A DNA stretch of 8,942 nt from JBHIER01 sp046760705 [NCBI: bacterium] (GTDB taxonomy: Bacteria > JBHIER01 > G020348925): assembly GCA_046760705.1 (NCBI GenBank), contig JBHIER010000110.1, forward strand, positions 1-8,942, read 5' to 3'. The position numbers and the translations under genes are program-made. Positions within the stretch are counted from its first letter, which is position 1. Each line of letters opens with the position of its first letter. The notes beneath the pieces are model-generated. The model saw only the letters and a list, made by a program, of their open reading frames with translations. It had not been told where the DNA came from and did not search any database. Shown in pieces: positions 1 through 8,942 of this stretch.

Positions 1-90
1 TCACCATCGATGGAGGAATAAAATTTTCGCATCCTTTAGCTTTATTGTCAATAATAGCATCCTGACAAAAGTAGTTTGCAAGACTGAGAA

Positions 91-128
91 TTTTTTGAGA
101 ATTTCAAAAAAAAATAAAAAAATTTTTT
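91..128. other. AT-tract region with AT-only-like inverted repeat
   Basis: This stretch contains a T run, a run of nine A (106-114), a run of seven A (116-122) and six T (123-128). TTTTTTGA (91-98) and TCAAAAAA (104-111) form an 8-bp inverted repeat with a 5-nt loop. Phased A/T tracts just upstream of a -35 box are the usual look of an UP element or of intrinsically bent DNA, and this block ends inside the -35 box at 127-132. The inverted repeat is too AT-rich, and lacks a following T run on either strand, to be called a terminator. The remaining upstream bases (1-90) hold no gene I can support. Confidence 0.45.
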
Positions 129-157
129 GACAGACTTTTTTCCATATGATATATGAT
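127..157 (+). promoter_or_regulatory. Candidate sigma-70-type promoter for the three-gene operon
   Basis: A perfect TTGACA lies at 127-132. The -10 is less clear: TATATG at 150-155 gives the ideal 17-bp spacer, while TATGAT at 152-157 is nearer consensus but gives 19 bp. The A/T tracts directly upstream could act as an UP element. Transcription would begin near 162-165 and leave a leader of roughly 140 nt before gene 1. This is the best promoter-like element upstream of gene 1 on this strand, and the next two genes follow with gaps too short to need their own. Confidence 0.5.
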
Positions 158-162
158 TTTAG

Positions 163-300
163 AAACTAGAGGGAAAATTGGGGTCGAGAAAGCAATAGAA
201 CGACATATACTTATTATGGTTGATTTTTTCTCATTTCTGCGTGCTCCTCTAACTTCTATAAATCTTCACCCGCTATTTCTATTCTTTCTGAAAGGATGAA
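163..300 (+). other. Long 5' leader of the operon, pyrimidine-rich in its second half
   Basis: No coding region is supported here. From about 220 to 290 the sequence is strikingly rich in C and T, ending just before the purine-rich ribosome site at 291-296. A short GTCG (183-186)/CGAC (201-204) complementarity is the only clear pairing I see in the first half. I do not recognise a known riboswitch. The length is more than a simple leader needs, so an RNA-level control element or a protein-binding site is possible but unproven. Confidence 0.3.
291..296 (+). promoter_or_regulatory. Ribosome binding site deciding the start of gene 1
   Basis: AAAGGA lies 4 nt before the ATG at 301 and 7 nt before the next in-frame ATG at 304. 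The second spacing is more typical, so translation may begin at 304 (one residue shorter). A third ATG at 296-298 is out of frame and reaches a TGA after one further codon. Confidence 0.6.
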
Positions 301-3300
301 ATGATGAAAACTCAAAAAAGATACAATTCCATCTTTCTAGCAATATTGGTCACTTTTTTTATTTTTTCAATCTGCCCGAATAAAAACCTCTGCTCCCTAA
401 ACACGCAATACACTCAGACAGAGAATATTGAGAATGCTCTCTTTAAATCCTTAAAAGAAAAACTCGAGCTGGCCAGGAAGAACAAGCTTGATTTTTACGC
501 CCCGAAAAGCTACCAAAAGGCTGTTCAGCTCTATGAATCTGCCCGAACCGATTTTAAAGCAGGTGCCAGACTCACAGACATCCGACAGAAAATCGATAAG
601 GCCAGCGAACATCTCGAGCAGGCTTTCAAGGCCGCTCAGATCTCCCGAAGTCTGTTAGAAGACTTGGTAAGAATCCGGCTGAAACTTTTCGAATTGGGTG
701 CCAATCGTTACGCTTCTCAAGAGCTCAGCAAATCAGAGCGTTATGTGCGAGAAGCTGTTTCCAAAGTTGAAGAAGGTGATATACGCTCTGCCCGGAGTGA
801 AGTTGAGAAAGCCTATGAGCAGTATCGCGAAGCTACCATAAAATGGCTTAAGAGTGGAATTCTTGAAAAGACCAAGGAAAATTTGAAAGGACTGAGGAGA
901 AAAGTAAGCCAGAAGGCTTATGAAAGATGCCTGGATGAGCTGAAGAACCTGGAGGAAAGTATAGATATCTCCACAACTGAAAAATTCAACCCTTTAGAAC
1001 TAAAGGACAACATTCTAGTAAAGCTTAAAGATATTTTAGAGCCTTTCTATCCGCCATTCTACAGAGACCTCCCTCAAACACTTCTCATAGGCGAATTTCA
1101 ATTAATTGTGGAGGCGTATACAGACAGAGGACACTGGGATTTTGACCAAAATCAGGCTGTTGGTCTCTCCGGAACAGCCTGGCTGAGCTTCAGCTGCGGC
1201 CTTTCGTTAATCCCTTTTATACCCCAGGGATTTCTGGAGATTAAGAATATGTTCGAGGTAGTTTCTGAAGTTACTGACCCCGAAAATCAGATCAGCCTCG
1301 AAGAAGCTCGCCTCATCAGTCCGCATGTCCGGTTAGGAGAAAAACTGGAGCTTGTGCTTGCATCTGAATCGAGAAAGCCGGAGAGCATACTCAAGGCTAA
1401 GGTGGATCTTCTCAACAAGCTGAAGCTGAAAGAAGAGAAGAAAGGCGACATCCTTGTTCATTTTGATAATGTAACTATCACCCAGGTTCCAGGACGGGCG
1501 AATGTGGGTCGCATTATTCAGGGCAAAGCTGCTTATCCGACCGAACCTCCCCAACCTGAAATCATCAATCTCTCAATCGAGGGCTTCACTGTCTGGATAG
1601 ATTCCCTTAATCTATCGCCTACTTCACCTGAAGCCGTGGCCCACATCAATCTTCAACTTCCCCAGAGCATTGGCTCTCCAGAGACCTGTGAACCAGTTGT
1701 GATTGACCTCGGCCTGGTGTCCATAACTCCCAATTGCGAATTCTATATCGAAAACCTTAATGAGCACTTTGGACCATGGATTGTGGATGACTTAGGAATG
1801 TTTGTAACCGGAACAGGTCATATTTTTGAAGTTGACTTCAGCTCCACAAAAAGTCCGGCCCCAAAGTCTCCCTCCTGGAAAGGCCTGATTCTTAAAAACG
1901 GCACAGCCACCGGGAATGGACTGGTCTCAGAGAATTCCAACACCGGCTATCTTACCGGAGATTACGTTTTCAGCGAAGCTGAAGTAACAGGTACTGGTTT
2001 TGCGGCTGAATTAACTCTCAGCGGAGCACTCTCTTTTCATCCCTCTCATCCCCCTGGATACCTGATCACGGTCGAAGGAGGAAAGCTTATTGTTTCTGAA
2101 AGCAGAATCACTTCTGGCCAGTTAGGTCCAGGGAAAATCGTTCTTCCCGAAACGGCTGTGTGCAAAGATGGGAATCCAGGTAGTTCTGTTGAGGCCAAGT
2201 TCTCATCCCTAACTGTTGAGGAGGACCTTGATCTCGCCTGCCAGGCTGCTTTCCCCACAGGGACTTTTATTGCCTGGGGAGAACTCACCCATCCAGGTGA
2301 AGAGGTTATTGCTTGGAAAGGGGAAGTTAATGAGGCCTATCTCTACCTCCCGGCAAGACCCGTAGCTTCCTTCTCACCTGATACAGGAAGCACTTTCTTA
2401 AATTTTACTCTCGCTGTAACCCTGAATGATGTCATCATGCAGCTCGAGACCCTCGAGCTTGCAGGAATTACACTCCGGGCTCCGAAAAATCTCACTATTT
2501 ACTCTCCAGACAGGCCAGGAGGGACGACAAACCCCATCAAGATGACGAATATCTCAGGCTGGCTCCACATCGGAAATCGCGGCGTGGATGGAGAACTCAA
2601 AGTCAACCAGTGGGGAAGCACTGAAGATATCGGCGACAATTCAAGGGAAGGGTATGTGGGCAAACAGCCTTTCAGGATGACACTCACCGGTGATATCGAG
2701 AGAAAAAAACCGATATTTTTCCAGTACGCCACGAGTGCTGTCTATGATTCTGAGATTAATGGAACTCTAGACATCCCTGAGCCATGTGATATCTCCAAAC
2801 TGCCTTTTTCTGATATGGAGGCTACCTCCACCGCAAATCTGGTGGGGGGAGACATCACCATTCCCTCAGGCGTTGAGCTTGCTTACTGGAAGCTCGGGTT
2901 TGAAGCGACAGGTGCAGATCCTACCCAGGCTGGGGTTATCAGTGAACGGACAGGTCGTCTTATATTCACAGAATCCGGGATTAGTGAGTATGTCCATTTT
3001 GAAAAAGTCTTCCCTCTCATCTGGTGTGAAATACTTGCCGATGGGAACATTGGAGAGCTTTTTCTCGACCTAAATTCCTACGGGCAGAAATTTGACGGTC
3101 TGCCATACTCAACCCATAATCTGGCTCTCTCAGAATATATTCCCGGAAATACTGATGGCTTCCTGGCTGTGTGCGGCACAGTTCACTTTAATTTTTTCGG
3201 CCAAAACTTTATCAACATCCAGGATGCCCGCTATGATGCCTCAAGCTCTGCCCCTTATTTCAGCAGATATGTCAAGGTACCCAAGAGCGGACTAGCATCG

Positions 3301-4470
3301 TGTGAACAGACCGACCTCACCCTTCACGGGGAATGGCACGATGCCCTGGGAAATGGACTTGCTGTCTTTGATTTTCCTGATGCAGAGATGCAATACAACG
3401 AGACAATCCAGGAAGGTTTTATGGGCACAGGCACTTCAAGTATCTCCTTCATCCATTCGGACGGAATCAACTCTACTGTAGAAATACACAGAGATGCCAC
3501 AGACATCTGCCTGAGCGCCACAGCCACTCATGACATTGATTTCGGCCTTTTCCCTTCTCCTTTTTCCTGTCTGGCTGGGATAAGTGAACTCTATGGCTGC
3601 GCCCGGATCGTCGGCCCTCAACTGGAGCGCATCGCCCTGGGAGGATATCTGGAACAGTCTGCGAGCGGGGGAAGCAGTGTCTTTGCACCTAAAAGCGGAT
3701 ATGCAGTCAGCATCAACATCTCAACCACTCCAAACTCATGCACCTTCCATGCTTCAGGAGACATGCTCCTGAGCATAGCAGCCACAGCCATTGATGTCTC
3801 TGGCTCTGTTACCCTCAGCGTGGACTTCACCCGATTGTCTGCTGAAGGAGATGTAGAAGCCCGTATCGACTGCAATGCAGTCCTGGCCGGGCTTTCGGGA
3901 GAGGGCCAGATTACCTGGTACACTGACCGCACAACTCAATATTTCCAGGGAAAAATGAGCATGGAAATCTGCAGCTGGACCGGTGGACTCGGGCTCGAAG
4001 GCGGACTTTTTATCGGCCACAATGTGCCCAAAACAAAGGCCTGGGTGCTTCAGACTGGAAGCGAACACTTTGGAGTATCAGATTCAATCCTCCCTGATAC
4101 GCTTACCGGAATATACGGCTACGGTCAGCTCTCATTTGGAGTCCAATGGTACATCTTTGGAGGAGGAGTGGAAGTTTACGCTGGAATGGGTGCCTTTTCA
4201 GAATCACCTTCAGGTCTTGCTACCCTCTGGAGTGATTTTGCAGGCCTCGGCTTCCCCTACATAATCGGCAGCCTGGGCCTTCATGTCTACGGAGAAATTC
4301 TTGGAGGACTCGTATCTGCCTCGGCATGGGCAGACCTGGACCTCAGAGGCCCGTCCCCTATCTATTACGAAGGAACGTTTGGCCTTGAAGGTTGTGTACT
4401 CTGGGTAATATGTGCTTCAGTTGACGTCACCGCCGGACTCAGTCCAAGCAGAGGTTTCTACATAGAATAG
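301..4470 (+). CDS. Giant exported beta-rich protein with DUF4398-like helical N-terminus
   Basis: I do not recognise a named family for the whole protein (1389 aa). Residues 1-24 are a basic start plus hydrophobic stretch, an export signal or N-terminal anchor without a clean AxA site. Residues 40-250 are charged and helical. They contain two DUF4398-like units: 'FYAPKSYQKA' (65-74) and 'RYASQELSKS' (136-145), each followed by Ala-spaced helices, as in periplasmic and outer-membrane-associated proteins of that family. From about 255 to the end the sequence is alternating hydrophobic/polar beta strands with many Gly, Thr and Ser and no obvious catalytic motif. The last 190 residues are especially rich in glycine and aromatics, as in beta-barrel or layered beta-sheet proteins. 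There are 19 Cys, 17 of them after the signal, suggesting disulfides outside the cytoplasm. It leads the operon, 25 nt before the FN3 gene. A scaffold, surface or envelope role is inference. Confidence 0.85.
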   Translation: MMKTQKRYNSIFLAILVTFFIFSICPNKNLCSLNTQYTQTENIENALFKSLKEKLELARKNKLDFYAPKSYQKAVQLYESARTDFKAGARLTDIRQKIDKASEHLEQAFKAAQISRSLLEDLVRIRLKLFELGANRYASQELSKSERYVREAVSKVEEGDIRSARSEVEKAYEQYREATIKWLKSGILEKTKENLKGLRRKVSQKAYERCLDELKNLEESIDISTTEKFNPLELKDNILVKLKDILEPFYPPFYRDLPQTLLIGEFQLIVEAYTDRGHWDFDQNQAVGLSGTAWLSFSCGLSLIPFIPQGFLEIKNMFEVVSEVTDPENQISLEEARLISPHVRLGEKLELVLASESRKPESILKAKVDLLNKLKLKEEKKGDILVHFDNVTITQVPGRANVGRIIQGKAAYPTEPPQPEIINLSIEGFTVWIDSLNLSPTSPEAVAHINLQLPQSIGSPETCEPVVIDLGLVSITPNCEFYIENLNEHFGPWIVDDLGMFVTGTGHIFEVDFSSTKSPAPKSPSWKGLILKNGTATGNGLVSENSNTGYLTGDYVFSEAEVTGTGFAAELTLSGALSFHPSHPPGYLITVEGGKLIVSESRITSGQLGPGKIVLPETAVCKDGNPGSSVEAKFSSLTVEEDLDLACQAAFPTGTFIAWGELTHPGEEVIAWKGEVNEAYLYLPARPVASFSPDTGSTFLNFTLAVTLNDVIMQLETLELAGITLRAPKNLTIYSPDRPGGTTNPIKMTNISGWLHIGNRGVDGELKVNQWGSTEDIGDNSREGYVGKQPFRMTLTGDIERKKPIFFQYATSAVYDSEINGTLDIPEPCDISKLPFSDMEATSTANLVGGDITIPSGVELAYWKLGFEATGADPTQAGVISERTGRLIFTESGISEYVHFEKVFPLIWCEILADGNIGELFLDLNSYGQKFDGLPYSTHNLALSEYIPGNTDGFLAVCGTVHFNFFGQNFINIQDARYDASSSAPYFSRYVKVPKSGLASCEQTDLTLHGEWHDALGNGLAVFDFPDAEMQYNETIQEGFMGTGTSSISFIHSDGINSTVEIHRDATDICLSATATHDIDFGLFPSPFSCLAGISELYGCARIVGPQLERIALGGYLEQSASGGSSVFAPKSGYAVSINISTTPNSCTFHASGDMLLSIAATAIDVSGSVTLSVDFTRLSAEGDVEARIDCNAVLAGLSGEGQITWYTDRTTQYFQGKMSMEICSWTGGLGLEGGLFIGHNVPKTKAWVLQTGSEHFGVSDSILPDTLTGIYGYGQLSFGVQWYIFGGGVEVYAGMGAFSESPSGLATLWSDFAGLGFPYIIGSLGLHVYGEILGGLVSASAWADLDLRGPSPIYYEGTFGLEGCVLWVICASVDVTAGLSPSRGFYIE

Positions 4471-4495
4471 AAAAGTTACAAAAGAGAGGATAAAT

Positions 4496-7168
4496 ATGTT
4501 TAGAAAAATTTCTTTTGGTAAAATTAAAATACTCCTTTCTATTTCCTTTATATTCTTCATTTTTTCTATCATTCTTTCCCTCAGCCTTTCAACCTTCCCT
4601 GCTTCTGCTGTTCAACTCCCCAGGAAGATGTCGCCCGAAAAAAACAAAGGAGATGTGCTTTACGCCACCTCTTCAGGAATTGACCGCACCGGAAAGACAT
4701 TCATCCTCCTCTACTGGAATCCGGTAGAGGGAGTGAAAGGGTACAATCTCTACCGCATGAAAAAGGGGGAGAGGAAATTCCCTAAAAAACCCATAAACGG
4801 AAAAAAACTTATCTCTTCGGTCAAAACGTGTGACGAATTAAAGGCTATTATTGGGGAAGGCACGCGAGAGTGGGAGATGCTGGGCAATGCCTTCTCAGCC
4901 ATCGCTCAAGAAAAAAAATCATTAAGCGAAACTGGCAAAACCGTGAACAAGAAGTATTACGGAGGCCGCCCTTTAAAGGAAAGTGAGCCCGGAAAGGAGC
5001 AGATTTACGATAAAGAAAAGCTAAAGAAAATAAAAACTCAAACTATCGACATGGAGAGTAAAACACTCACTCAACTATCAAGGATAGGAAAGATGAGGCC
5101 AGACCTCTATCTCACTTCTGTGAACCCCTGTAAAGCACTTGAGCGGGGACTCACTGCTGAGGAAGAGATGGCATTCAACATGATGGCCTCAGTTAACCTC
5201 AAGATTCGCCTGGCCCGGGGTCTGGGCTTTATCGATTACGATGTCAAGGCAGATGAGAAGTATATCTACGAGCTGAGGGCGGTGAAGACCAAGGACGAAG
5301 AAATGCTCATAGCCACCAGTGTTGAAGTCTGGGCAGGCCACTTTGTCCTTCCCAGCCCTCCTATGGGCTTTACCCTTGAAGCCGGAGATAACAAAGTTCT
5401 GGCCACTTGGGAGAGGAACCCTTCTGCTTTCAGCTACAGGGTGCGGAGGTCGACAAGTCCTTACGGACCTTACCAGCTTATCCACGAAGAACCAATCCTC
5501 TACGATATTTCAACCGACCTTGATGGTAATCCCATTGACCCGCCCAAGCCTGGTTTTGTAGACTTCCAGAGATGGACCGAAGACGGCTATCCTGATACCC
5601 ACCAGGTGGACGGTGTAGATGTCTCAGGGCCTGAAAACTATGTCACCTACTACTACCAGGTTGCATCCTGTGATATCCTGGACAGAACTGGAAGCTGGAG
5701 CTCTTATCAGTCTGCCACTCCAACTGACCAGACACCACCTAAAACTCCAGGCGACTTTAAGATTGAATCCTCCTCAACAGGTTTAACTCTCTCATGGCAG
5801 AAGGTAACCAGGGATATCAACAGCCATGTAGAACTGGATACTTCCCATACCTACAAGATCTACCGCTCAGATGATATAAACAAGATAGAGGATATTGGCT
5901 CCCTCGCAAGCTACTTAGCCCATACACTGACGGCAAACCCCACCGATACAACCACCATGACCATTACCTGGAAAGATACTCATCCTGACCTTTTCCCCCC
6001 ATACGGAGAAAAGGATTTCTGGTACAGAATCCAGGTCGAGGATGCTCATGGAAACATAAGTTCTCCCTCTGCAGTCATTTCCGGAAGAGTACCGGATACA
6101 ACACCTCCTGGTTCAACCCATGTTACTGGAGCTGATGGGTTTGCAGACCACATAACCGTGATGTGGGACCCAAATCCGGAACCAGACCTCGCCGGCTATC
6201 AGATCTACCGCAGTACCTGCGACATGGGAGTATTTTACCAGCCTCGCTCCCAGAAACCTGAGCAAGAGCTCTGTAATTTCGTCCTCCTCGGCGAAATCCT
6301 TTTAAAAGAAGCTGACAAAAGACTTGGCGAGACAGGGAATATTTATTTTGAAGACTCATCCCTCCCCGAAGGTTCCCCCATCTGCTATTCCTACTGGGTC
6401 AGGGCCTTTGACATGGCGCGAAATGTCTATGATGGAAACATAGGCTGCCCGGCTTCCCCTTCCGAATATACCTGTCAGCGTCTTTATGAGGAGACACCTC
6501 CACCCGCTCCCATTATATCTGCACTCAAAGCTAAGAATAACTCGGTTTTGATCGAGTGGATATCCTCGCCAGTCCAGGACCTGCGGGCTTTTCATGTCTA
6601 CCGTTCCAAAAAAGAAACGGATGTTCCAACCTTTGTCGCCTGCGTTTTTACTGACGGGAGTGTGAGTTCAAGCAAGTGGACTGGGATAAAGCCCGACTGC
6701 GCCGATATACCGGGTGTTCCTGACCCGACAACCATCAGAATCTCATTCACTGACTCGGGCCTCAAGCCAAACGAGGTCTACTGGTACCGCGTCTCTGCTC
6801 TGGATTGGCTGGGAAACGAAAGCGAAAAAGAAGATATCTCCCACATCCCCGCTATAAGCACCTTCACCTACAGTAAAGACCTGCCAGAGACTCCGATTGT
6901 GCTGCCACCCAGCGGCCCACCCCCTGAGGGATGCGGTCTTGTCGTTAAGTGGCAGCCTATCTTTAATCCCACTGCGCTTGAAGGATTTGTTGTCTTCCGG
7001 AGCTCATCCGAAACCGGTCCATTCCGACAGGTGAGCGGGGTGGTTAAGGGAAATGAGTTCATCGACAGCTCTGCCATCAAAGGCCGGAATTACTGGTACT
7101 GTGTTCAGTCGATTGACAAGCAAGGTAAGCACTCAAAGCCTTCGGCACCCGTTCTTTATACATATTGA
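4496..7168 (+). CDS. Exported multi-domain fibronectin type III protein
   Basis: This 890-aa protein has a strong signal peptide with probable cleavage after 'ASA' (residues 36-38). About six FN3-like domains follow: 53-108 plus 246-280 (split), 285-409, 414-532, 535-667, 668-788 and 796-890. Each shows the paired strand signatures of this fold, for example 'YKIYRS' (453-458), 'YQIYRS' (568-573), 'FHVYRS' (699-704), 'FWYRIQVEDAHGN' (508-520) and 'YWYRVSALDWLGN' (762-774), and most begin after a Pro-rich 'TPP' or 'SPP' linker. Domains run to 95-135 residues, longer than the usual 90, because of loop insertions. Residues about 110-245 are a helical, Lys/Glu-rich insert inside the first domain. 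There are 12 Cys in the mature part. A clear ribosome site, GAGAGGA (4484-4490), sits 5 nt before the ATG. FN3 arrays typically serve as adhesive modules or spacers. No enzyme domain is visible, and its partner or ligand is unknown. Confidence 0.9.
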   Translation: MFRKISFGKIKILLSISFIFFIFSIILSLSLSTFPASAVQLPRKMSPEKNKGDVLYATSSGIDRTGKTFILLYWNPVEGVKGYNLYRMKKGERKFPKKPINGKKLISSVKTCDELKAIIGEGTREWEMLGNAFSAIAQEKKSLSETGKTVNKKYYGGRPLKESEPGKEQIYDKEKLKKIKTQTIDMESKTLTQLSRIGKMRPDLYLTSVNPCKALERGLTAEEEMAFNMMASVNLKIRLARGLGFIDYDVKADEKYIYELRAVKTKDEEMLIATSVEVWAGHFVLPSPPMGFTLEAGDNKVLATWERNPSAFSYRVRRSTSPYGPYQLIHEEPILYDISTDLDGNPIDPPKPGFVDFQRWTEDGYPDTHQVDGVDVSGPENYVTYYYQVASCDILDRTGSWSSYQSATPTDQTPPKTPGDFKIESSSTGLTLSWQKVTRDINSHVELDTSHTYKIYRSDDINKIEDIGSLASYLAHTLTANPTDTTTMTITWKDTHPDLFPPYGEKDFWYRIQVEDAHGNISSPSAVISGRVPDTTPPGSTHVTGADGFADHITVMWDPNPEPDLAGYQIYRSTCDMGVFYQPRSQKPEQELCNFVLLGEILLKEADKRLGETGNIYFEDSSLPEGSPICYSYWVRAFDMARNVYDGNIGCPASPSEYTCQRLYEETPPPAPIISALKAKNNSVLIEWISSPVQDLRAFHVYRSKKETDVPTFVACVFTDGSVSSSKWTGIKPDCADIPGVPDPTTIRISFTDSGLKPNEVYWYRVSALDWLGNESEKEDISHIPAISTFTYSKDLPETPIVLPPSGPPPEGCGLVVKWQPIFNPTALEGFVVFRSSSETGPFRQVSGVVKGNEFIDSSAIKGRNYWYCVQSIDKQGKHSKPSAPVLYTY

Positions 7169-7192
7169 GAAATTGAAAATAAAAATTTATCT

Positions 7193-7197
7193 AAGGA
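7193..7197 (+). promoter_or_regulatory. Ribosome binding site for gene 3
   Basis: AAGGA here lies 7 nt before the ATG at 7205. A second purine cluster (AGAGGA, 7199-7204) abuts the ATG and is too close to serve. This supports 7205 as the start, which also gives a full signal peptide. Confidence 0.6.
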
Positions 7198-7204
7198 AAG
7201 AGGA

Positions 7205-8761
7205 ATGAGAAAATCCATCATCTTTTTCACCTTTCTAATCATATTAATTAGCAGCTTCCTCTCGTGGGGAGGCGAGTTCGATCCCGCAGTGGACGGCTGG
7301 TACTTTGAAAACTTTGGCACCGAGGAACTGACATGGGACCTCTTCAGAAGAGCCTACCTCGGCATATACCCCACCCAGGACTGTGAGGAAGCTCCCCTGG
7401 ACTGCCTCTTTTTCGATATTTTCAAGATATGTGCTGCTCCGGGGAACTGCGGAGGAATGTCGCTCCTTGCTCTATCTCTCTATAAATACGGAGGATACCT
7501 GGGCTTCTGTTCTCCAGCAAACTTCTACACTGGCGAGGAAGGACCGGACAGAGATGACCTGCGCCAGGCCCTCAACATCATGCAGGCCCGACAATTCAGC
7601 GCTTCAGGCCTCAATCATTTCCTGGAAATAAGCGATGCAGGCAACTTAAACGATGCGGAAAATGCCTATGAAGACATCAAAGAAGCTCTGGCCAGCGGCG
7701 ACTATCCTGTCCTGACCATTGCCAATAACTACCTGGCCGAGGCTGCCCATACCGTGATTCCCTACAAGGTAGAGGAAGATCCTATAACAGGGAACAAATT
7801 AATCTATATATGGGACTCGAACTTCCCTTACGATGACGCTCCTGATGATTACTCGCCCACAAGCACTAACAACAAAATGGTCATCAGTGGACCCACCAGC
7901 TGGACTTACAGAGATTATTCTGGCTCAGGAGGTGGGTGGTGTTTTGCTATCCCAATGTCCGTATATGTCGAAAAGTCTCGCCATCCTCTGGCTGTGGACA
8001 TAATCATCGATTCTCTGATGACCATCTTCATCACAGGCACAGGTTCAACCATTTCTCAGATAACAGACGACGAAGGTCACAGGCTCTTCAAGACAGATGC
8101 TGAGACACACACTTTCAGGAGTGATCTTGAAGATAACCCGTCTAAAAAGCTGAAAGGAATCATAAGATGGCCGTGGTATGCTCAGGTAGTCAAGATGAAG
8201 GCAAAGTATAAAATACCAGGGGAACTCTATTTTATGCGTCCCAGATTAGGCAAGCTCTCGGCGCTCAACATCTCATTAAGCGGTACGAACTACAAAGCAA
8301 TAATTTCTCTCGCTGGAAGTGTTATCCAGCTTAATTCTTCCTCCTCAAGCCGGACAAGAGATACGCTCAGAGTCTCCGGGATGGCTACTGGCACTCAGTC
8401 CCTGGAGATAAAAACTCCTGGAAAAAAACGCAAATTTGAAATCAAGCTGCTCCGCACCGGAACAAAAGGAAAAGACTGGAGAAGCTTTATTGTCAAGAAC
8501 CTAAACATAAGCCGTGACATCCCAGTGACTGTCACTGCTGTGGGCGATCTGGAAGGTGTTCTCGTTTCAAGTCTTGATAAAAAAGTCAGCTTCGAACTCG
8601 ATATCCAGCAGCGGCTCAAGCATAAGACTGCGAGAAGAAGCGCTGGCAAGCTTTCCACCTCTCCTGGAAAAGTACTGAGGGTTGCACCTAAAGACTGGAG
8701 AAACTTAAAGAAAACTGAGTTAGAGAAGCAAGATCACCTTCAAACGAGAATAAAAAGATAG
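7205..8761 (+). CDS. Exported papain/C39-like cysteine peptidase homologue with beta-sandwich C-terminus
   Basis: The protein has 518 aa. Residues 1-22 are a signal peptide (basic start, long hydrophobic core, probable cut near 'WGG'). The candidate nucleophile is Cys82 in 'GNCGGMSLLALSLYKYGG', at the head of a helix as in papain-fold enzymes. His182 lies in 'AAHTVIPYKVEE' and Asp204 in 'YIWDSNFP', matching the His-strand-Asp ending of papain/C39-like peptidases. The Cys-His gap of 100 residues fits these better than a transglutaminase, where it is much shorter. I see no clear papain-type oxyanion Gln six residues before Cys82, so activity is likely but not certain. Residues about 262-340 and 345-465 look like two beta-sandwich regions. 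The last 49 residues are strongly basic. Five other Cys are present. It is third in the operon, 36 nt after the FN3 gene. Its substrate is unknown; candidates are its two partners or an external target. Confidence 0.75.
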   Translation: MRKSIIFFTFLIILISSFLSWGGEFDPAVDGWYFENFGTEELTWDLFRRAYLGIYPTQDCEEAPLDCLFFDIFKICAAPGNCGGMSLLALSLYKYGGYLGFCSPANFYTGEEGPDRDDLRQALNIMQARQFSASGLNHFLEISDAGNLNDAENAYEDIKEALASGDYPVLTIANNYLAEAAHTVIPYKVEEDPITGNKLIYIWDSNFPYDDAPDDYSPTSTNNKMVISGPTSWTYRDYSGSGGGWCFAIPMSVYVEKSRHPLAVDIIIDSLMTIFITGTGSTISQITDDEGHRLFKTDAETHTFRSDLEDNPSKKLKGIIRWPWYAQVVKMKAKYKIPGELYFMRPRLGKLSALNISLSGTNYKAIISLAGSVIQLNSSSSSRTRDTLRVSGMATGTQSLEIKTPGKKRKFEIKLLRTGTKGKDWRSFIVKNLNISRDIPVTVTAVGDLEGVLVSSLDKKVSFELDIQQRLKHKTARRSAGKLSTSPGKVLRVAPKDWRNLKKTELEKQDHLQTRIKR

Positions 8762-8870: not shown

Positions 8871-8899
8871 TTGACATTCTCCCTGATAACAATTATTAT
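8871..8899 (+). promoter_or_regulatory. Near-consensus sigma-70-type promoter
   Basis: TTGACA (8871-8876) and TATTAT (8894-8899) are separated by exactly 17 bp, matching consensus at 11 of 12 positions. The predicted transcription start is about 8905-8907, inside the inverted repeat at 8900-8921. It points at a gene that begins near the window edge and would make it a transcription unit separate from the operon upstream. Confidence 0.7.
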
Positions 8900-8922: not shown

Positions 8923-8942
8923 ATGAGTGTAAAGAAAGAGAA
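8923..8942 (+). CDS. Possible start of a downstream gene, cut by the window edge
   Basis: ATG at 8923 is preceded by GGGAG (8912-8916) at 6 nt spacing and by a strong promoter. The readable product is only 'MSVKKE', so no function can be given. Support comes from the promoter and ribosome site, not from the coding sequence itself. Confidence 0.4.

Follow-up and report, generated by a model that had tools for sequence, protein, structure and literature searches.

The PFNA operon of bifidobacteria is said to carry a transglutaminase-like gene together with kinase and ATPase members. This gene cluster includes an FN3 protein (PMC8430577), as does the locus analysed here, three adjacent genes (A, B and C) in an 8,942-nucleotide (nt) stretch of contig JBHIER010000110.1, hereafter the window. 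None of the three window proteins matches a kinase or an ATPase in Pfam, a comparison confined to these three genes.

Each protein also has its own nearest described counterpart. The N-terminal domain of NusA (PF08529) resembles a stretch of about 60 residues in A, just above the gathering score, in four of six A members; A differs from NusA in having an export-type signal and in lacking the rest of that protein. Protein B resembles FN3-array proteins (PF00041), since the whole of B exceeds the Pfam cut-off and is repetitive within itself, but it starts with a conserved domain (residues ~50-300, 4643..5395 on the plus strand) whose last part is common to the B-like proteins of two distant genomes, G700 and G1086. 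IdeS (1y08) is a papain-fold protease in which 22 residues lead from His262 to Asp284. Protein C has the same Cys-His-Asp order, and its His182 and Asp204 are also 22 residues apart. C differs from IdeS and the papain-fold C-H-D proteases in that PDB sequence searches, its core profile included, returned nothing better than E 0.3, and from IdeS in the motifs GNCxGM and HxVxPY...D.N.PY, which are particular to it, and in a beta domain at the C-terminal end.

Like the initial annotation, which recognised no described system of this composition, we found no named one in Pfam, NCBIfam, PHROGs, PADLOC or the literature searched, a literature with little coverage of subscription journals; the PADLOC-DB defence models gave 0 families for A, B and C at E up to 0.1. 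Conserved order in five other genomes, as far as their contigs extend, now backs the reading of the three genes as one exported module. The module is a defined, testable unit in place of three unknown genes; two of its protein families, A outside the NusA-like stretch and C, have no dedicated model in Pfam or NCBIfam and co-occur in three phyla. Of the new facts, the most useful are this conservation across phyla, the pairing of A with B, apparently fused in one genome, and the C-H-D triad of C, which is invariant in the members that cover it.

Gene order in the window and in five other genomes

All three open reading frames (ORFs) lie on the plus strand. Gene A (301..4470) encodes a giant protein of 1389 amino acids, with homologues in genomes G001, G003, G509, G158 and G002; gene B (4496..7168) encodes an FN3-array protein of 890 amino acids, and gene C (7205..8761) a protein of 518 amino acids with a papain-type catalytic pattern. 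These coordinates were verified, and so were the same-strand arrangement and the 25- and 36-nt gaps noted initially. A purine-rich, ribosome-site-like stretch precedes the start of each gene. Each protein also begins with a strongly hydrophobic stretch, as judged by a Kyte-Doolittle hydropathy heuristic: the best 12-residue means are 3.13, 2.99 and 3.08 for A, B and C, and the later parts are less hydrophobic (2.23, 2.13 and 2.11). On this heuristic the export signals first read in all three proteins are borne out. A, B and C look like one unit.

A DNA pattern that encoded GNCGGM and left two further residues loosely defined hit 32 loci among the genome contigs, and tblastn identified 3 of the 32 as module relatives: L005 in an Armatimonadetes metagenome-assembled genome (MAG), L035 in a Desulfobacteraceae MAG and L016 in a Candidatus Acetothermia MAG, the last of which resolves to Bipolaricaulota in taxonomy. 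Scanning with C peptide patterns brought up no relative. The module relatives fall in Armatimonadota, Desulfobacterota and Bipolaricaulota, names that misbinning could distort.

Complete A-B-C modules, in the same order and on the same strand but with differing flanks, are present in G001 (Armatimonadetes MAG) and G003 (Desulfobacteraceae MAG). G509 carries A-B on a contig that ends inside B. In G158 a 5'-cut A lies on the same contig as a 3'-cut B, and 130 residues of C are found at the end of a second contig; G002 has the N-terminal part of A at the edge of a contig and B-C on a different one. B follows A in all four relatives whose contig spans A into B (G001, G003, G509 and G158), and among the close homologues in the five relatives no contradicting gene order was seen. 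Apart from two pieces, the A proteins are 46-56%, the B proteins 49-62% and the C proteins 47-50% identical to those of the window. Since homologues at about 50% identity retain order and strand in three phyla while their flanks differ, the adjacency is not due to chance. The initial annotation had proposed asking whether homologues stay adjacent. Close ones do, in five genomes and as far as the contigs reach; homologues mostly apart, the case that it named as refuting, are not seen among close relatives, with a reservation for G509, and are seen at a distance in seven lone C genes and two A-B pairs that lack C. The earlier observation of a real three-gene unit largely holds.

The guanine-plus-cytosine (GC) content of the module resembles that of its own contig (module/contig 0.576/0.571 in G001, 0.533/0.492 in G003, 0.538/0.512 in G509 and 0.638/0.643 in G002), which makes one common contaminant unlikely. 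The window ends 181 nt past C, and its flanks, short and AT-rich, are uninformative for such a comparison. With G002 excluded, as it has pieces only, the nearest relative by A is also the nearest by B in five of five genomes. The nearest relative of G509, which belongs to the same class as G001, is G003 from a different phylum, a hint of cross-phylum transfer or of misbinning. Upstream of the G509 module is a short fragment (L073 834-1220) that looks RHS/YD-repeat-like by eye.

The A-B pair and the putative enzyme C

The conserved core of A, delimited by alignments, comprises residues 252-1389 (1054..4467, plus strand), in which the window protein is 47-56% identical to the other alignment rows. 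Ahead of it, residues ~31-250 (391..1050, plus strand), helical-looking by eye, are peculiar to the window among the five A proteins with the 5' part read; A of G002 carries a different N-terminal part. This end, variable between genomes, may set the location or the binding partner of A. Within the core, residues 312-375 (1234..1425, plus strand) match NusA_N (PF08529) at E 2.6e-5, with 24.9 bits against a cut-off of 23.8 and coverage of only model positions 53-114 of 119. Pfam finds NusA_N in four of the six A members. Of the five A proteins covering the stretch, four show it (the window, G001, G509 and G002), and in G003 it is degenerate. NusA chains in PDB match A at E about 0.007-0.010, and the A profile also matches ORFs reading as NusA in other genomes. 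The full NusA model TIGR01953 gave 21.3 bits, below its cut-off of 253.4.

The initial description of A as a protein of unrecognised family needs one amendment, the NusA_N-like stretch; at cut-off A has no other family in Pfam or NCBIfam, and PHROGs returned nothing for A or C. Pfam matches to Thy1, MIT, DUF7553 and Pertactin lay below cut-off and were taken as chance. A beta-repeat scaffold, the other part of that description, was not established: self-comparison of the A profile gave no off-diagonal repeat (best P 0.2), the predicted structure was unusable (mean predicted local distance difference test score, pLDDT, 35.5), and residues ~31-250 look helical. A C-terminal domain common to A and the giants of G1086 and G700, an idea formed by eye, was discarded as the hhalign values (E 0.14 and 0.42, respectively) were matched by 30 shuffles each.

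The FN3 array seen in B from the outset was confirmed. The whole protein scores 36.4 bits against Pfam fn3 (PF00041; cut-off 25), no single stretch passing alone, and self-comparison shows internal repeats. A CbhB match in the NCBIfam search and matches to FN3-bearing phage-tail families in PHROGs were interpreted as generic FN3; two plasmid matches of B had 24% identity. The N-terminal domain of B aligned by hhalign with G700 at E 1.8e-6 and with G1086 at E 1.6e-4 (probability 50.5%), and 20 shuffles, made for the G1086 target only, gave E 0.04 or worse.

These two genomes link A to B without C. In G700 (L076, L078) a 2734-residue A-like protein (E 2.4e-12) and a 739-residue B-like protein (E 1e-43, FN3 included) belong to one cluster on a single strand; between them lie two small ORFs, 244 and 272 residues long and similar in style, and B is followed by a 1996-residue ORF; no C match was found within ~36 kb. 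In G1086 (Chloroflexota; L081, L082) a single ORF of 2026 residues (contig 58969-65049), again lacking C, has an FN3 part with a B-like N-terminal domain followed by an A-like stretch (E 6e-11). Being clustered in one genome and apparently fused in the other, both times without C, A and B look like the older pair, and the two arrangements suggest that A and B bind each other. The apparent fusion predicts physical contact. A-B would then be the core and C a later partner.

Distant homologues of C, with N-terminal parts of their own, occur in seven genomes of the G001 phylum (L050-L056). They are 19-21% identical to C in the alignment and 23-27% in the C-query search, and no A or B match was found in the 5-19.5 kb fetched around each.

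The catalytic core of C, as aligned, comprises residues 24-262 (7274..7990, plus strand). The C member set numbers 12, of which 11 cover the catalytic region and the twelfth is a C-terminal piece. In all 11 covering members Gly80, Asn81, Cys82, Gly84, Met85, His182, Pro186, Tyr187 and Asp204 are invariant; Asn206 and Pro208 are kept in 10. The single predicted catalytic nucleophile is Cys82, in the GNCxGM motif (codon 7448..7450), and the His182 and Asp204 codons are at 7748..7750 and 7814..7816, all on the plus strand. The papain-like pattern claimed at first thus reappears as an invariant triad, and C has the conserved Cys, His and Asp/Asn in the order that defines papain-fold peptidases in general. 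In the C model Cys82 opens helix 82-97, His182 opens strand 182-191 and Asp204 follows strand 198-203, which is the papain order, with low confidence there; core pLDDT is mostly <60. The beta domain (residues ~336-517, 8210..8755, plus strand) is confidently modelled from ~351, with block means of 78-91 for residues 351-510.

The sole Pfam match of C was to Pertactin, at E 0.1 and 13 bits (cut-off 22), and NCBIfam gave nothing at E 1. VIA-align listed no row with Z >= 8 for C. For the core it gave IdeS 1y08 at rank 4 (Z 5.1, root-mean-square deviation (rmsd) 6.3, 160 aligned) and 9jdd (Z 5.5, rmsd 4.1, 138 aligned), and for the C-terminal domain 4m0h, a putative anti-sigma factor (Z 6.6, rmsd 3.0, 110 aligned); none of these is decisive. 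Judged by its predicted C-H-D pattern, C is best read as a papain-fold cysteine enzyme, of a family without a Pfam or NCBIfam model. Two other GNCGGM ORFs (L020 7210 and L032 745) were noted, in genomes with no match in the C search or to the C profile.

Possible roles of the module

We tentatively favour, at somewhat less than an even chance, a reading in which A, B and C form one operon-like module for extracellular or cell-surface assembly, with C processing the A-B core. The giant A and the FN3 array B would bind each other outside the cytoplasm as a structural core; C would have joined later, and would cut or mature the core or release it from the surface, its action limited to the subset of genomes that carry it. 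The assembly, the target of C and the location of the products are what we infer here, and the role suggested initially, to build, process and anchor a surface structure or to deliver the peptidase, likewise stays a proposal. Should the assembly prove real, it would represent a novel class of exported multi-protein structure from uncultured bacteria. A bolder form, an undescribed extracellular machine spanning phyla, made of a new-family giant, an FN3 array and a new papain-fold enzyme acquired later, with a piece of NusA re-used outside the cell, is doubtful.

Several observations weigh against the favoured reading. The module is rare and patchy in the sampled genomes. A complete A-B-C is present in only two of the five relatives, the other three being cut by contig ends, and the G509 assembly has no C match at E 0.001. 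The G158 piece of C is 27% identical over 130 residues, and the G002 piece of A is 29.8% identical in one alignment and 47% in another. Pairwise identities of A and B correlate moderately (r 0.65, 10 pairs). The G1086 fusion is deduced from a single A-like stretch of 116 residues and from a B match that is weak (the probability of 50.5% given above), and the C-termini of the G1086 ORF and the G700 giant do not match A. Distant C genes with no A or B nearby imply that C may act alone. For the fold of C, the VIA-align Z of 5.1 is no clear match, and Foldseek with the C model found none at E 0.001.

In the alternative that fares best C is not a protease and would cross-link A and B, or anchor them, as a transglutaminase-type or acyl-transfer enzyme; we regard it as unlikely. 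A Cys-His-Asp triad is common to transglutaminases and several papain-fold proteases, papain itself being C-H-N, so the triad cannot separate a cross-linker from a protease. The C-H-D of C in place of papain's C-H-N, invariant in 11 of 11 covering members, speaks for cross-linking, as does the position of C beside two genes for exported, possibly structural proteins. Against it, no transglutaminase model in Pfam or NCBIfam matches any of the 12 C members at E 0.1, a result that peptidase models share, and the core profile is equally without a solved-structure match better than E 0.3.

Less likely again is a module that captures and digests outside protein, with A-B as a surface receptor or adhesin and C as a scavenging protease for nutrients. 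The export-type signals on all three proteins, from hydropathy, would suit it. So would two of the families found among the 12 C members at E 0.1, where the only matches were IPT/TIG in two members, LGFP in one and a choice-of-anchor repeat in two; IPT/TIG and LGFP domains occur in surface proteins. No transporter or uptake genes were recognised beside the G001 and G003 modules, however, in flanks read by eye without a profile search.

We consider it improbable that C acts as an effector against other cells, with A-B as the scaffold that carries or delivers it. A giant exported protein, an FN3 array and an enzyme are compatible with effector delivery, and B matches FN3-bearing phage-tail families in PHROGs, but those matches can be read as generic FN3, PADLOC gave no match, and C has an export-type signal of its own. 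The searches of viral contigs (for C and A) and of phages (for C and for near DNA matches to the module), described below, also count against it. That three exported-protein genes are adjacent by chance with no functional module, as lone distant C genes and distant A-B pairs without C might suggest, is most improbable in view of an order that persists at about 50% identity across three phyla whose flanks differ.

Distribution, mobile-element searches and expression signals

No relative of C or A was found in plasmids or in viral contigs, and three viral loci carrying the pattern gave no tblastn match. In phages a protein search, which covered C only, found no relative, and no near DNA match to the module was found. 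A phage or plasmid origin was set aside on these results, the two plasmid matches of B being at 24% identity.

The distribution searches used genome sets that overlap. With C as query, matches were found in 8 of 151 genomes in the G001 phylum (one strong), 2 of 100 in the G002 phylum and 1 of 198 in the G003 phylum. The C profile matched two genomes among 61 relatives of G003 and two among 28 in the G001 class, one strongly in each; 0 of 13 assorted genomes matched, an empty result that is uninformative without a positive control. The A profile matched 3 of 251, 2 of 100 and 7 of 395 genomes in the phyla of G001, G002 and G003. Its strong matches were G001, G509, G158, G002 and G003; G700 was distant and the rest were weak. 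A six-row A profile picked out two genomes, G1086 (distant) and G997 (NusA-like), among 340 of the phylum to which a Chloroflexi MAG belongs, and 0 of 348 in Planctomycetota, the phylum of a Phycisphaerae MAG, again uninformative for want of a positive control. Left out as module members were the weak C-profile matches G459 (6.6e-4) and G130 (8.8e-4), the weak A-profile matches G319 and G793, and G140, G312, G656, G670 and G997, whose A-profile ORFs read as NusA from sequence.

No RNA family reaches threshold in the window. The region upstream of A (1..300) is AT-rich, has no listed ORF and contains several weak sigma-70-like matches, which agree with the consensus only and are not functional evidence. 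The best sigma-70-like site in the window, an 11/12 match by consensus only, is at 8871..8899 on the plus strand and precedes an ATG near 8923. Its location after C suggests a new unit that begins with the next gene.

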